Assembly (NCBI GenBank): GCA_036704125.1
Contig: DATNQI010000100.1
Coordinates: 1 to 36,190, forward strand
DNA: 36,190 nt
Direction of reading: 5' to 3'
Source: Pantanalinema sp.
GTDB taxonomy: Bacteria; Cyanobacteriota; Sericytochromatia; S15B-MN24; UBA4093
The notes below the pieces were generated by a model. It was given only the letters and a program-made list of their open reading frames with translations, made no database searches and was not told where the DNA came from. The position numbers and the translations under genes were made by a program. Position 1 is the first letter of the stretch. Every line of letters begins with the position of its first letter. Below, piece after piece: positions 931 through 5,316 of the stretch.

Positions 931-962
931 AAAAAGCGGGGCGCTCATCAGAGCGCCCCGCT
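931..962 (-). terminator. Intrinsic terminator between convergent genes
   Basis: A perfect 11-bp stem (935-945 with 952-962) closes a 6-nt loop. A run of A on the + strand at 931-935 is the U-tract for minus-strand transcripts, so it best fits the end of the Tim44-domain gene. It also lies just after the lipoprotein gene stop and may slow + strand transcription. Confidence 0.85.
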
Positions 963-969
963 TCGGCTG

Positions 970-1965
970 TTAGTACTGGTTGATGGCCGAGAGGCGCCAG
1001 TCGTCCTCGCCGCGGGTGCGGTTGAAGGTCCAGGCCTCCTTGAACTCGACCGGCTCGCTCGTCGAGCCCTCGACCACCTGACCGTGGCGCTCCATGTAGT
1101 CCACGAGGCGGGCGTAGATCTTGACGGTGATGTACTCCTCGCGGTCCTCGGTCCACGCCTCGGTGAGCTCGAAGGAGCGCATGACGATGTTCTTGATGAC
1201 GTTGCGCTCGCCTCGGCCGGCCATGGTGTCGAGGTCCTCGCGGAAGTAGTCGAACATCTCGGGGGTGGTCAGGCCGCGCAGGGCCGCCTGATCGTTGCTC
1301 GACCAGGCCTCCTGGACCCGGAAGAAGACGCCCGACAGGGCATCCTCGGTCTGCTCGGTCTTGAAGCCGGGGCTGTTGAGGGCGATGGCCGCGAGGCCCT
1401 GCTCCTTGGTCTGGCGGTAGCCGCCGATGTCGGTGATGGTGGGCGCCTGGGCGCCGAACTGCGAGGGCTGGTCGAAGGTCTGCCTGCCGAAGGGGTCCGA
1501 GGGGGCCCCCTGGCTGCCCGGCGCGTAGCTCGGCTGCTGGCGGTTCTTGAGCATGCGGTAGGCCATGAAGGCCAGGCCGCCGAGCAACAGCAGCGTCAGG
1601 AAGCCGCCGCCACCGCCGCCGCCCATGCCGCCGAAGCCTCCAAAGAGGCCGCCCAGCATCGAGAAGAGGGCGCTGCCCGCGAGCGCGCCGGCGAGGCCCG
1701 CCATGAACGGGTTGCGCTGGAACCAGGAGGGCTTGTTCTGCTGGAGCGGGTTGGTCCTTGCCGAGGCTGCGGGGTTGTTCCACTGCCGGGTGCGCTGGAT
1801 GCCCTGCATGCCGTTGTTGTCGAAGGTGCGCGCGCCGCGCGCCCCCATGGACGAGTACCCGCCCGACCTGGCCGAGCGGCCGGCGCGCGCCGAGGCGTCT
1901 TCGGCGACGACCCCGCCGAGGAAGATGCCGAGAGCTGCGATGGCGAGAATTTTACGAGCGTTCAA
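970..1965 (-). CDS. Tim44-domain membrane protein under a Mn riboswitch
   Basis: 331 residues starting at TTG (1965-1963). The start is fixed by a perfect AGGAGG at 1976-1971 with a 5-nt spacer. Residues 1-22 resemble a signal peptide or first membrane anchor. Residues 23-85 are Arg/Gly/Asn-rich. A glycine-rich hydrophobic segment (88-138, with a run of seven Gly near 115-121) probably spans the membrane. The C-terminal part (about 180-331) matches the Tim44-like domain: a VQEAWSSND region, then an NTF2-like fold ending in DDWRLSAINQY. Bacterial proteins of this layout are often annotated as Tim44-like translocase proteins, but their function is poorly known. The gene stands alone behind a 5' leader of about 237 nt holding a manganese riboswitch and terminator, which suggests a role linked to Mn stress or envelope proteins made under high Mn. 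Confidence 0.85.
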   Translation of the reverse strand: MNARKILAIAALGIFLGGVVAEDASARAGRSARSGGYSSMGARGARTFDNNGMQGIQRTRQWNNPAASARTNPLQQNKPSWFQRNPFMAGLAGALAGSALFSMLGGLFGGFGGMGGGGGGGFLTLLLLGGLAFMAYRMLKNRQQPSYAPGSQGAPSDPFGRQTFDQPSQFGAQAPTITDIGGYRQTKEQGLAAIALNSPGFKTEQTEDALSGVFFRVQEAWSSNDQAALRGLTTPEMFDYFREDLDTMAGRGERNVIKNIVMRSFELTEAWTEDREEYITVKIYARLVDYMERHGQVVEGSTSEPVEFKEAWTFNRTRGEDDWRLSAINQY

Positions 1966-2037
1966 ATGAACCTCCTGTGAGTCGCCGTCCGAGGACGGGG
2001 AAAAACGAGATCCGTCGTCTGCTCATCGGGACGTGCC

Positions 2038-2098
2038 AAAAAGGAGCACGACCTTGGATGAGCGGGCGACGGCCTGCTCAATACCAAGGTCTTGCTCC
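2038..2098 (-). terminator. Riboswitch-controlled intrinsic terminator
   Basis: On the minus strand a 15-position stem pairs 2098-2084 with 2057-2043 with one mismatch, followed at once by five U (A-run 2038-2042 on the + strand). Its 5' arm contains the GCAAGACCTTGG segment that also forms the 3' strand of the aptamer P1 helix. The terminator and the closed aptamer are therefore mutually exclusive, as in an ON switch. Confidence 0.85.
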
Positions 2099-2204
2099 CG
2101 AGCTGTCGCTCGTCGCGGGCACCGAGCCCAGAAGGGCTGTGTTGACGATGCCTGCGTCTGCCTTTTTTTGGGCGGCAGCGGCTACTCCCCTAAGTTTTGA
2201 ATGG
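2079..2204 (-). promoter_or_regulatory. yybP-ykoY manganese riboswitch aptamer
   Basis: The minus-strand RNA carries the hallmark loop GGGGAGTAGC (2190-2181), the second conserved loop ATCGTCAACA (2149-2140), and the 3' signature GCAAGACCTT (2095-2086), in the order and spacing I recall for the yybP-ykoY family. P1 is visible: the RNA 5' end (about 2202-2189) pairs with 2089-2077 through roughly 13 positions with two mismatches. In this family Mn2+ bridges the two conserved loops and stabilises P1. Here that would break up the overlapping terminator and turn the Tim44-domain gene on. Family match and geometry are seen; ligand binding is inferred. Confidence 0.85.
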
Positions 2205-2208
2205 AGGC

Positions 2209-2236
2209 ATCTTACCACACCGCGCCGAGATGTCAA
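2209..2236 (-). promoter_or_regulatory. Sigma-70 promoter of the riboswitch transcript
   Basis: Minus-strand TTGACA (2236-2231), 16-nt spacer, TAAGAT (2214-2209). The predicted transcription start near 2202 places the RNA 5' end exactly at the start of aptamer helix P1, which supports both calls. Confidence 0.8.
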
Positions 2237-2552: not shown

Positions 2553-3971
2553 ATGGAACCCACCACCGCCCCCGCGGGTGCGCCAGAGTTACTCGATCGC
2601 CGCCTGATCGGCGACGTGCTCGATACGGCCCTCTCGAACGGCGCCGACTTCGCCGAGATCTTCGTAGAGGACAAGGCGACCAGCCGCATCTCCCTGCTCG
2701 ATTCCAAGGTCAAGGACGCCGCCAGCGGCCAGGTCCTGGGGGCGGGCATCCGCGTGCTCTACGGCACCCGCGCGGTCTACGCCCACACCAACGACCTCTC
2801 GCGCGAGAGCCTGCTCTTCGCGGCGCGCTCGGTGAGCCAGGCCCACCAGGGTTCCGAGCGCCACCCGGCCTCGGCGCTGGTGAGCGCGCCGCGCGGTCGG
2901 GTCCATCCCTTCGAGCGGGACCCGCGCGAGGTGCCCTCGGCGCTCAAGGTCGCCCTGCTCTCGCGGGCCGACCGCGCGGCCCGGGCCTTCGCCAGCGAGA
3001 TCTCGCAGGTGGACGTTTCGTTGACCGAGTGGGTGCAGCGCGTCCTGGTGGCCAACTCGGAGGGGCTCTTGGCGAGCGACCTTCGGCCCTACGTCCGCCT
3101 GGCGATCCAGGCGATCGCCTCGGATGGCACCGAGTTCCAGACCGGCGCCGAGTCGCCGGGCGCCCTGCGCGGCTACGAGTGGATCGACGCGCTCGACGTG
3201 GAGGCCCTCGCCCGGTCCGCCGCCGAGCAGGCCATGACCATGCTCAAGGCGGGCTACGCCCCTTCCGGCAAGATGCCCGTCATCATCGACAAGGGCTTCG
3301 GCGGGGTCATCCTCCACGAGGCATGCGGTCACCTGCTCGAGACCACCTCGGTCGCGACCGGCGCCTCGGTCTTCGCGGGCAAGATGGGCGAGCGGATCGC
3401 CCACCCCAGCGTGACGGTGGTGGATGACGGCACCCTCGAGGCCGAGTGGGGCTCGACGGCCATCGACGACGAGGGCATGCCCACCGAGAAGACGACCCTC
3501 ATCGAGAACGGCAAGCTCGTCAGCTACATCGTCGACCGGCTCGGCGCCCGCAAGACCGGCTACCGCCCCACGGGCTCGGGCCGCCGCGAGAGCTACCGCT
3601 TCGCGCCCACCAGCCGCATGCGCAACACCTACATCGCCCCGGGCCCCCACTCGCTCGAGGAGCTGATCGCCTCGGTGCCCTACGGCCTCTACGCCAAGCG
3701 CATGGGCGGCGGATCGGTCAGCCCCGGCACGGGGGACTTCAACTTCTCGGTGCGCGAGGCCTACGTCATCCGCGACGGCAAGCTTTGCGAGCCGGTGCGC
3801 GGCGCGACCCTGATCGGTAACGGCTCGGACATCCTCCAGAAGATCGACATGGTGGGCAGCGACCTGGCCCATGCGGCCGGGATGTGCGGCTCGCTGAGCG
3901 GCTCGATCCCCGTCAACGTCGGCCAGCCCCCGGTCCGGGTCTCCGAGATCGTCGTGGGCGGAAGGAGCTAA
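2553..3971 (+). CDS. tldD: TldD metalloprotease subunit
   Basis: 472 residues, the usual length for TldD. The zinc motif is HEACGH, with His255, Glu256 and His260, followed by conserved blocks including EAEWGSTAIDDEG and the C-terminal GMCGSLSGSIPVNVGQP. TldD is the catalytic half of the TldD-TldE heterodimer, a cytoplasmic protease that digests unfolded peptides through a narrow channel. In Escherichia coli it matures microcin B17 and degrades the CcdA antitoxin. AAGGAG (2542-2547) sits 5 nt before the ATG. tldE follows after 4 nt, so both are co-transcribed and made in equal amounts. No peptide precursor gene is visible nearby. Confidence 0.97.
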   Translation: MEPTTAPAGAPELLDRRLIGDVLDTALSNGADFAEIFVEDKATSRISLLDSKVKDAASGQVLGAGIRVLYGTRAVYAHTNDLSRESLLFAARSVSQAHQGSERHPASALVSAPRGRVHPFERDPREVPSALKVALLSRADRAARAFASEISQVDVSLTEWVQRVLVANSEGLLASDLRPYVRLAIQAIASDGTEFQTGAESPGALRGYEWIDALDVEALARSAAEQAMTMLKAGYAPSGKMPVIIDKGFGGVILHEACGHLLETTSVATGASVFAGKMGERIAHPSVTVVDDGTLEAEWGSTAIDDEGMPTEKTTLIENGKLVSYIVDRLGARKTGYRPTGSGRRESYRFAPTSRMRNTYIAPGPHSLEELIASVPYGLYAKRMGGGSVSPGTGDFNFSVREAYVIRDGKLCEPVRGATLIGNGSDILQKIDMVGSDLAHAAGMCGSLSGSIPVNVGQPPVRVSEIVVGGRS

Positions 3972-3975
3972 GCAG

Positions 3976-5316
3976 ATGAACACCTACACCACCGAGATCC
4001 AGGCCGTGCTCGCGGCCGCGACCCAGGCTGCCGTCGAGGCCGAGGTCTACCTGCGCGCCGCCACCGCCACCACCATCCGCATCCAGGACCAGGAGGTCGA
4101 CCAGTTCTCGCTGGCGGACTCGCGCGGGGCGGGCATCCGCGTCGTGAAGGACGGAAAGGTCGGCTACGCCTACACCGAGGACCTCTCGGCCGAGGCCATG
4201 CTGCGCACCCTCGAGGCCGCGATCACCAACGCGGGCCTCATCCCCGAGTCGGTGGGAGCGGCGCTCGCCTCCTTCGAGGGAGAGACGGCCGAGCTGGGCC
4301 TGCACCGCCCCGCGCTCGCCGAGATCGCCGTGCCGGTCAAGATCGACAAGGCCAAGGCCCTCGAGCGCGTCGCGAAGGCCGCGGACCCGCGGATCAAGAA
4401 CGTGACGAGCACCATGTACTCCGACACCCACGGCTTCGTCCGGGTCGCGAGCACCGCAGGGGTCGATCGCAGCTTCAAGAGCAGCCTCGCGTGGCTCGCC
4501 ACCGTGCCCCTGCTCCACGCGGACGGCCAGAACAAGAACTACTACCAGGTCAAGGCCGTGCGCGACTTCGAAGCGCTCGATCCCGAGGCGATCGCCCGCG
4601 AGGGCGTCGCGCGCGCCGCCGAGAAGCTCGGCGCCCGCGAGCCCCAGTCGGGCACCTACCCGGTCCTGATCGAGTCGGATCCCATGGGGGATCTGCTGCA
4701 GGTCTTCTCCGGGATCTTCTCGGGCAAGCTCGCCCAGGAGGGCAAGACCCTGCTCAAGGACCGGATCGGCGAGGCGATCGCCGCGAGCGTCATCACCATC
4801 GTCGACGATCCGCTCAACGTGGAGGGCTACGGGGCGCGCCCCTTCGACGACGAGGGCTGCCCTTCCAAGGTCGTGCGGCTGGTCGAGGGGGGCGTGTTCA
4901 AGGGCTTCTTGCACAACGCCGAGACCGCGCGCCAGGCCGGGGTGGCCTCGACGGGCCATGCGGCCCGGGGCGGCTACAAGGGCACCGTCGAGGTCGCGCC
5001 CTCCAACCTGTACCTGGAGCCCGGGGAGCGCGAGCCCGAGGCGATCCTCGCCGAGTTCGAGCGGGCCGTCATCGTCACCGAGGTGACGGGGCTTCACGCC
5101 GGGGCCAACGTGATCTCGGGGGACTTCAGCCTCCAGGCCCAGGGCTTCTGGTGGGAGGGCAAGAAGCGCTCGCCCATCCACAACTTCACCATCTCGGGCA
5201 ACTTCTACGCCCTGCTCTTGGAGATCGCCGAGGTCGCCAGCGATCTCGAGTGGTTCACCTCCGGGATCGGCTCGCCCTCGGTGCTGGTCAAGGAGCTTGC
5301 GATCGCAGGGGCCTAG
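3976..5316 (+). CDS. tldE: TldE (PmbA) non-catalytic partner of TldD
   Basis: 446 residues, the standard TldE/PmbA length. It shares the fold of TldD, for example a similar N-terminal region with ADSRGAGIRVVKDGKVGYAYT, but lacks the HExxxH motif, as expected for the partner that completes the TldD active-site channel. The C-terminus keeps the FTISGNFYALL and GSPSVLVKELAI blocks. It starts 4 nt after the tldD stop; the ribosome site GGAAGGAG lies inside the end of tldD, implying translational coupling. A GC-rich hairpin follows its stop. Confidence 0.96.
   Translation: MNTYTTEIQAVLAAATQAAVEAEVYLRAATATTIRIQDQEVDQFSLADSRGAGIRVVKDGKVGYAYTEDLSAEAMLRTLEAAITNAGLIPESVGAALASFEGETAELGLHRPALAEIAVPVKIDKAKALERVAKAADPRIKNVTSTMYSDTHGFVRVASTAGVDRSFKSSLAWLATVPLLHADGQNKNYYQVKAVRDFEALDPEAIAREGVARAAEKLGAREPQSGTYPVLIESDPMGDLLQVFSGIFSGKLAQEGKTLLKDRIGEAIAASVITIVDDPLNVEGYGARPFDDEGCPSKVVRLVEGGVFKGFLHNAETARQAGVASTGHAARGGYKGTVEVAPSNLYLEPGEREPEAILAEFERAVIVTEVTGLHAGANVISGDFSLQAQGFWWEGKKRSPIHNFTISGNFYALLLEIAEVASDLEWFTSGIGSPSVLVKELAIAGA

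Follow-up and report, generated by a model that had tools for sequence, protein, structure and literature searches.

In the window (the whole stretch of DNA that was analysed, 36,190 nucleotides long), the gene of a membrane-anchored Tim44-domain protein appears to be controlled by a transcriptional riboswitch of the yybP-ykoY class that would switch it on, a reading of the sequence to which we give a probability of nearly nine in ten. The promoter, the yybP-ykoY aptamer and the overlapping terminator that a first-pass annotation had assigned to the region upstream of 970–1965 were all located on the minus strand, from 2236 to 2038, and no gene intervenes between this leader and the Tim44 gene (1965–970); a gene lying there is what the same annotation had named as speaking against its proposal. 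The riboswitch looks ordinary and of a known family, and its Tim44 target looks new: no such target was found in the full-text literature on yybP-ykoY, riboswitches or bacterial manganese together with Tim44, in line with the earlier statement that Tim44 is not an established one. This novelty is provisional, since the literature searched does not include Dambach et al. 2015 and Price et al. 2015, the principal surveys of targets. The elements of the unit are, in window coordinates:

2231–2236, minus strand: -35 hexamer TTGACA (promoter scan)
2209–2214, minus strand: -10 hexamer TAAGAT, after a 16-nt spacer (promoter scan)
2056–2202, minus strand: match to the yybP-ykoY (Mn2+) riboswitch, RF00080, model positions 1–177, 28.3 bits
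2189–2195, minus strand: 5' strand of P1, ACUUAGG (folding, covariation)
2181–2190, minus strand: L1 motif GGGGAGUAGC, the same in 7/7 switch-class leaders
2158–2178, minus strand: P2 hairpin (CUGCC/GGCAG)
2115–2155, minus strand: P3 with loop L3
2138–2145, minus strand: L3 motif UCAACACA (by comparison with the L. lactis loop)
2099–2112, minus strand: P4 hairpin CGAGC-GACA-GCUCG
2083–2089, minus strand: 3' strand of P1, CCUUGGU, common to the 5' arm of the terminator
2043–2098, minus strand: intrinsic terminator hairpin, -37.1 kcal/mol (folding)
2038–2042, minus strand: U run of the terminator (TTTTT)
1971–1976, minus strand: ribosome-binding site AGGAGG, 5 nt ahead of the TTG start
970–1965, minus strand: Tim44-domain membrane protein P0001, 331 aa, with a TTG start at 1965

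The promoter, TTGACA-16-TAAGAT, is the sole promoter-like site within 1960–2300 (shuffles: mean 0.0), and the 5' end of the RNA would lie near 2202 on the minus strand. From there to 2020, the folding energy is -93.5, compared with a shuffle value of -63.2 +/- 4.55 (z -6.66), the terminator contributing part of it. A simple terminator scan of 1960–2300 listed 0 terminators, the hairpin at 2098–2043 having been missed probably because its stem has internal loops. The 3' strand of P1 (2089–2083) falls inside this hairpin, just as the first-pass annotation had it when it described the 3' strand of the aptamer as being also the 5' arm of the terminator. Because P1 and the terminator thus compete for one strand, the switch probably permits expression when Mn2+ is high, and the geometry supports the earlier prediction to that effect. 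The strand sharing is found in 6/6 leaders examined among the seven of the switch class (those of the two Tim44 genes, of the short paralogue P0004, of two Na/Ca exchangers and of one TerC, the leader from the genome G010 being left out); folded by itself at minimum energy, the aptamer closes P1 in four of these six, and P1 is shifted by one base in the Tim44 leader of the related genome G001. In the L. lactis switch, as described in an excerpt of PMC11087558, Mn2+ stabilises P1.1 and blocks the terminator. If the window leader works as other members of the riboswitch family do, high cytosolic Mn2+ would, together with Mg2+, dock L1 to L3; this docking would stabilise P1, keep the terminator from forming and let the Tim44 gene be transcribed, while at low Mn2+ transcription would end at 2043–2038.

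When the leader was scanned with the Rfam covariance model, as the first-pass annotation had proposed, RF00080 returned a full-length match with an E-value of 4e-6 in a 361-nt search (9.1e-6 genome-wide), so that the expected match is there, at a score that stays under the curated cut-off (28.3 bits for a gathering score of 45 bits). Consequently, the window yields no entry in a default Rfam scan. Across the genome of the window and 58 relatives, RF00080 yields 12 matches with E up to 0.01 (L001, L002, L004–L013) in 11 of the 59 genomes, and 0/12 reach 45 bits. Among the ten loci outside the own genome, eight have a UPF0016-type gene (ELGDKT motif, by eye) and one a MntP-like gene (by eye), while one, in G010, has no clear gene downstream. 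Judged by eye, the leaders and UPF0016-type genes of these relatives suggest a Cyanobacteriota-like phylum. As all 12 matches are below the cut-off, including the eight before UPF0016-type genes, this cut-off is stringent for the group, and we think that the low Rfam score of the leader is not a problem, plausible switches of the group scoring low as well.

Two further covariance models were built, both with structures hand-drawn on their alignments: R1 from five switch-class leaders, of which the window leader is one, and R2 from five leaders of other genes, without both Tim44 leaders. R2 finds the window leader with 85.6 bits and an E-value of 3.8e-18, the next-best place in the window reaching 14.3 bits (E 0.27); the R1/R2 match spans 2198–2082 on the minus strand. 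The Tim44 leader of G001 is also found by R2 (49.2 bits, E 1.5e-9), with RF00080 giving merely 18.1 bits there (E 0.089). R1 finds seven leaders in 4/18 genomes of the class sample, five of them being its own training rows. Outside these seven, L006 and L007, which are more distant leaders, have an A as the ninth base of L1. Within L3, the A at 2143 lines up with A41 in the aptamer of L. lactis (UCA41AUUC), an equivalence based on the motif and not on a 3D model; A41 touches Mn2+ via N7 according to an excerpt of PMC6754395. The covariation of the seven leaders, which covers P1, P3 and P4 without P2, amounts to 14 pairs changed on both sides, against 8.2 +/- 1.9 in shuffles (1/500 as high), and to a score of 0.496, against 0.191 (0/500 as high), with sliding controls far lower; 85.5% of the cells are paired, against 68.3% in shuffles, P4 being the weakest helix (71.4%). 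This alignment is biased towards the R1 structure, to which it had been fitted; the same covariation picture emerges from five leaders aligned with MAFFT without such fitting, the alignment that underlies the hand-drawn structure. The G001 Tim44 leader has a long P2.

That a strong terminator hairpin and a riboswitch-like stretch were brought together by chance, or are left as a degenerate relic, is hardly credible: the absence of the window from the gathering-threshold scan and the share of the terminator in the folding energy would agree with such an origin, but it is contradicted by the independent model R2 at 3.8e-18, as well as by the covariation, the consensus promoter and the conservation in G001. 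Somewhat less far-fetched, while still quite improbable, is an aptamer that is a variant of the class responding to some other divalent metal or to a signal linked to pH, an idea to which the 12/12 Rfam matches under the cut-off, and the one class member that has GCCAAGCC in place of GUCAACAC in L3, lend some colour. Against it, the window leader keeps the L1 core and the Mn-contacting A, leaders found with the same model stand before TerC and CaCA genes, and UPF0016- or MntP-like genes, recognised by motif, lie behind 9/12 of the low-scoring leaders.

As for the gene under this putative Mn2+ switch, its product P0001 matches PF04280 with an E-value of 6e-34 (117.7 bits for a Pfam cut-off of 29.6). 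It is laid out as a signal-like helix (residues 3–28), two membrane-hairpin-like helices (86–108 and 119–140) and the Tim44 domain (188–330); since positive residues follow helix 119–140, the sequence places this Tim44/NTF2-like domain probably in the cytosol. A PDB sequence search gave no match. The AlphaFold2 model, computed from six sequences, has a low overall confidence (65.5), with a low-confidence linker before the C-terminal domain and mean pLDDT values of 88–96 per ten residues for residues 211–330. Using this model, Foldseek retrieved human Tim44 (2cw9, E 3.2e-7) and yeast Tim44 (3qk9); the best solved structures were human Tim44 and chains of the mitoribosomal large subunit, which we take to be mL45, and TIM23 complexes were matched too. 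Mitochondrial Tim44 acts at the TIM23 translocon. P0001 stays below the NCBIfam cut-offs, both for the Tim44/TimA adaptor (NF033779, 66.3 of 80 bits) and for the TimA equivalog (NF033778, 29.3 of 200). A plasmid search returned 162 records, all below 60% identity, 140/162 being from Rhizobium. Immediately downstream of the Tim44 stop, an inverted repeat rich in G+C and trailed by T (931–963, minus strand) looks terminator-like by eye; a simple terminator scan of 880–1010 listed 0 terminators. The surroundings hold a Peptidase_C92 (YiiX-like) gene at 71–919, convergent with the Tim44 gene, and, on the plus strand at 2553–5316, a TldD/PmbA-type metallopeptidase pair that is transcribed away from the riboswitch unit.

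The pairing of switch and gene recurs in the lineage. PF04280 is present in 3/18 genomes of the class sample, and the same three are retrieved from the 386-genome phylum sample: the own genome (G000), G001 (same family, other genus) and G010 (another family). The G001 ortholog (336 aa, 55% identical to P0001, Pfam E 4e-32) is the only other full-length Tim44 gene of the phylum sample, and it has the same type of leader, with a promoter-like stretch (by eye), an aptamer and a terminator directly upstream, the two Tim44 aptamers being 60% identical. The full-length Tim44 genes known under the switch are two, in draft assemblies of one family. In G010, a truncated Tim44 piece (PF04280 E 8e-13) sits close to the start of a contig, and no switch is seen alongside this fragment at the contig end; 58 bases separate its stop from the first ATG of a TerC gene further along the same strand (E 1.2e-47; L137 222–1392, G010:C191). 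A near-identical Tim44 stretch of the same genome ends contig C6, behind a MMPL gene, and the end of C6 repeats the start of the Tim44 contig. A MMPL gene (PF03176) stands ahead of the G001 switch and ahead of one of the G010 Tim44 pieces; as the two MMPL proteins are 29% identical, this common gene order is weak evidence.

G000 has three copies of the switch, located before the Tim44 gene, before P0004 and before a Na/Ca-exchanger gene. Na/Ca-exchanger genes are under the switch in both genera of the family, identified by Pfam in G000, the G001 gene being 62% identical to that of G000. Their aptamers are found at L003 1505–1618 and L029 1501–1616, and the L3 of L003 reads GCCAAGCC as opposed to GUCAACAC. 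In another genome of the class sample, G005, the switch precedes TerC (aptamer at C399:4819–4933, PF03741 at C399:5039). At G010:C174:15103–15220 (L026), an aptamer scores 73 bits with R1, for which it is a training row; by eye, it has no clear gene or terminator behind it and looks like an orphan or decayed switch. An exchanger-kind target of the switch is already known, CaCA being found at 9/99 Pseudomonadota switches, and yrbG is presumably a further member of the Na/Ca-exchanger family. The latter gene, coding for an inner-membrane protein, is predicted to be under the switch in Vibrio vulnificus in an excerpt of PMC13274385.

The switched paralogue in the own genome is the following:

L001 1457–1068 (G000:C45), minus strand: second switch of the own genome with P0004, a membrane protein of 129 aa

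P0004 has no Pfam match and aligns with residues 1–144 of P0001, i.e., its anchor half (BLASTP 38.1 bits, E 1e-8); a script gives this pair 39.7 bits, where 200 full shuffles reach at most 20.4 and 200 that keep the hydrophobic pattern at most 22.3. In single comparisons, to which the E-values refer, P0004 is also matched from the G001 Tim44 protein (E 1.9e-5), from the Tim44 relatives L021 and L022 (about 3e-5) and, with less clarity, from L019, L020 and L023 (E 0.004–0.06). Its relatives in the class sample amount to none in G001 and one weak match in G007 (E 2.2e-4). No other pair of aptamers is as similar as those of P0004 and Tim44 in the own genome (73%, the others ranging from 50 to 64%). 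Because P0004 resembles the anchor half and the aptamers are 73% alike, we read P0004 as a probable duplicate of the whole switch-gene unit from which the Tim44 domain was lost.

Outside the lineage, the distributions were examined in a sample of Pseudomonadota, where PF04280 occurs in 225/299 genomes and RF00080 in 89/299 (99 matches, from a search with stricter filters in which weak matches are lost). The genes downstream of the 99 switches, assigned by the best blastp match among ORFs within about 2.6 kb, belong to UPF0016 (69), MntP (14), CaCA (9), TerC (3) or none of these (4), and 93/95 of the target matches start within 700 nt of the aptamer; the earlier statement that the known targets are mainly Mn exporters agrees with these 95/99 switches. 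One of the four unassigned loci (L102) has a UPF0016-like EIGDKT motif by eye. Tim44 is found at 0/99 riboswitch loci, using an HMM that finds it in 60/60 Tim44 neighbourhoods, contig ends shortening 5/99 of the former and 9/60 of the latter. Conversely, no riboswitch match occurs within 17 kb of any of the 150 Tim44 matches listed, 38 of them in switch-carrying genomes, and R2 gives nothing better than E 0.54 in the neighbourhoods of 60 of these 150, taken with up to 4 kb of each flank. The same 60 neighbourhoods gave 0 matches to TerC, MntP, CaCA, UPF0016 or MMPL at E 1e-4 (tblastn, for which Tim44 queries matched 49/60), so that the TerC neighbour in G010 is atypical for Tim44 genes. R2 recovers 28/30 Pseudomonadota riboswitch loci at E up to 0.1, these 30 of the 99 coming mostly from the best-scoring third. 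The alphaproteobacterial Tim44 relatives L018–L023 have no switch either, their best R2 match being at E 0.12. The first-pass annotation had suggested looking for the same leader at other Tim44 genes; this holds for the G001 ortholog and fails in the 60 Pseudomonadota neighbourhoods (0/60) and in L018–L023. Taken together, the Pseudomonadota counts make the pairing a lineage feature in these samples.

Tim44 as a general Mn target was rejected for the Pseudomonadota sample (0/99 switches before Tim44). A joint acquisition of gene and riboswitch from Proteobacteria received no support, L018–L023 and the Tim44 genes of the Pseudomonadota sample being devoid of the switch.

Since the pairing is repeated in a related genus, it suggests that the Tim44 protein takes part in manganese handling, a link that we also infer from context, namely the switched anchor-only paralogue and the TerC neighbour in the third genome. 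The Mn-linked envelope function that the first-pass annotation had proposed would draw on this same context. There is, however, a sizeable chance, if clearly short of even, that the switch is real and the protein has no specific Mn role: it may be a housekeeping envelope adaptor that a duplicated riboswitch came to control by chance, or else be produced at high Mn as a general stress protein. This alternative competes with the protein-role part alone. It draws on the examined Pseudomonadota Tim44 genes, which are without a switch and unlinked to Mn genes, and on the three switch copies of the own genome, which indicate that copies spread. It accounts less readily for a pairing that was kept across two genera with 55% protein and 60% aptamer identity, for a second Tim44-like anchor gene that is also switched and for a Tim44 piece that adjoins TerC in a third genome, from another family.

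Should the Tim44 protein indeed have a role in manganese handling, its context points to a possible accessory of Mn2+ efflux or of membrane metal delivery. The protein would then be produced alongside the Na/Ca-exchanger-type transporter, which both genomes also have behind a switch of this kind, and its Tim44/NTF2-like domain, with a probable location in the cytosol, would serve as the adaptor. A Mn-induced membrane adaptor is the most economical functional guess for P0001, though an unlikely one. The G000 and G001 genomes give no TerC match, 12/18 genomes of the class sample have one, and UPF0016 is found in G001 and not in G000. In a speculative and rather doubtful extension, the Tim44 adaptors of the lineage would form a new Mn2+-induced class, acting in Mn2+ export or in Mn2+ loading during translocation, as TerC (MeeF/MeeY) in Bacillus; the anchor half (P0004) would be enough for the Mn regulon, and the full protein would come under Mn control in the two genomes that lack TerC. 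In any case, a Mn riboswitch before a Tim44 gene is a direct and testable hint of a Mn-linked membrane role; Tim44 genes are widespread in bacteria, as in the three quarters of Pseudomonadota genomes counted above, and the short list of the Mn regulon gains one candidate more.

Compared with known systems, the TerC proteins MeeF and MeeY of Bacillus subtilis, which an excerpt of PMC10550928 presents as membrane proteins with links both to the handling of Mn and to the Sec translocon, find a parallel in the TerC gene adjoining the G010 Tim44 piece, whereas P0001 itself has no TerC match and comes, like its G001 ortholog, from a genome without a TerC match; a functional link between P0001 and TerC/MeeF/MeeY is what we hypothesise. 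With the bacterial Tim44-domain proteins (PF04280, NF033779, Caulobacter TimA), P0001 shares a C-terminal Tim44 domain with membrane helices ahead of it and, with the alphaproteobacterial relatives, a FQRNP stretch; in contrast to them, it is under a predicted Mn riboswitch, of which 0/60 Pseudomonadota neighbourhoods have one. Caulobacter TimA has been used as an inner-membrane marker, according to an excerpt of PMC3359395. Finally, the window leader differs from the yybP-ykoY riboswitches of RF00080 by its target, a Tim44-domain protein, and by a bit score below the curated cut-off, while it resembles them in the L1 motif GGGGAGUAGC, in an L3 with the Mn-contacting adenosine, in its four helices and in the competition between P1 and the terminator.
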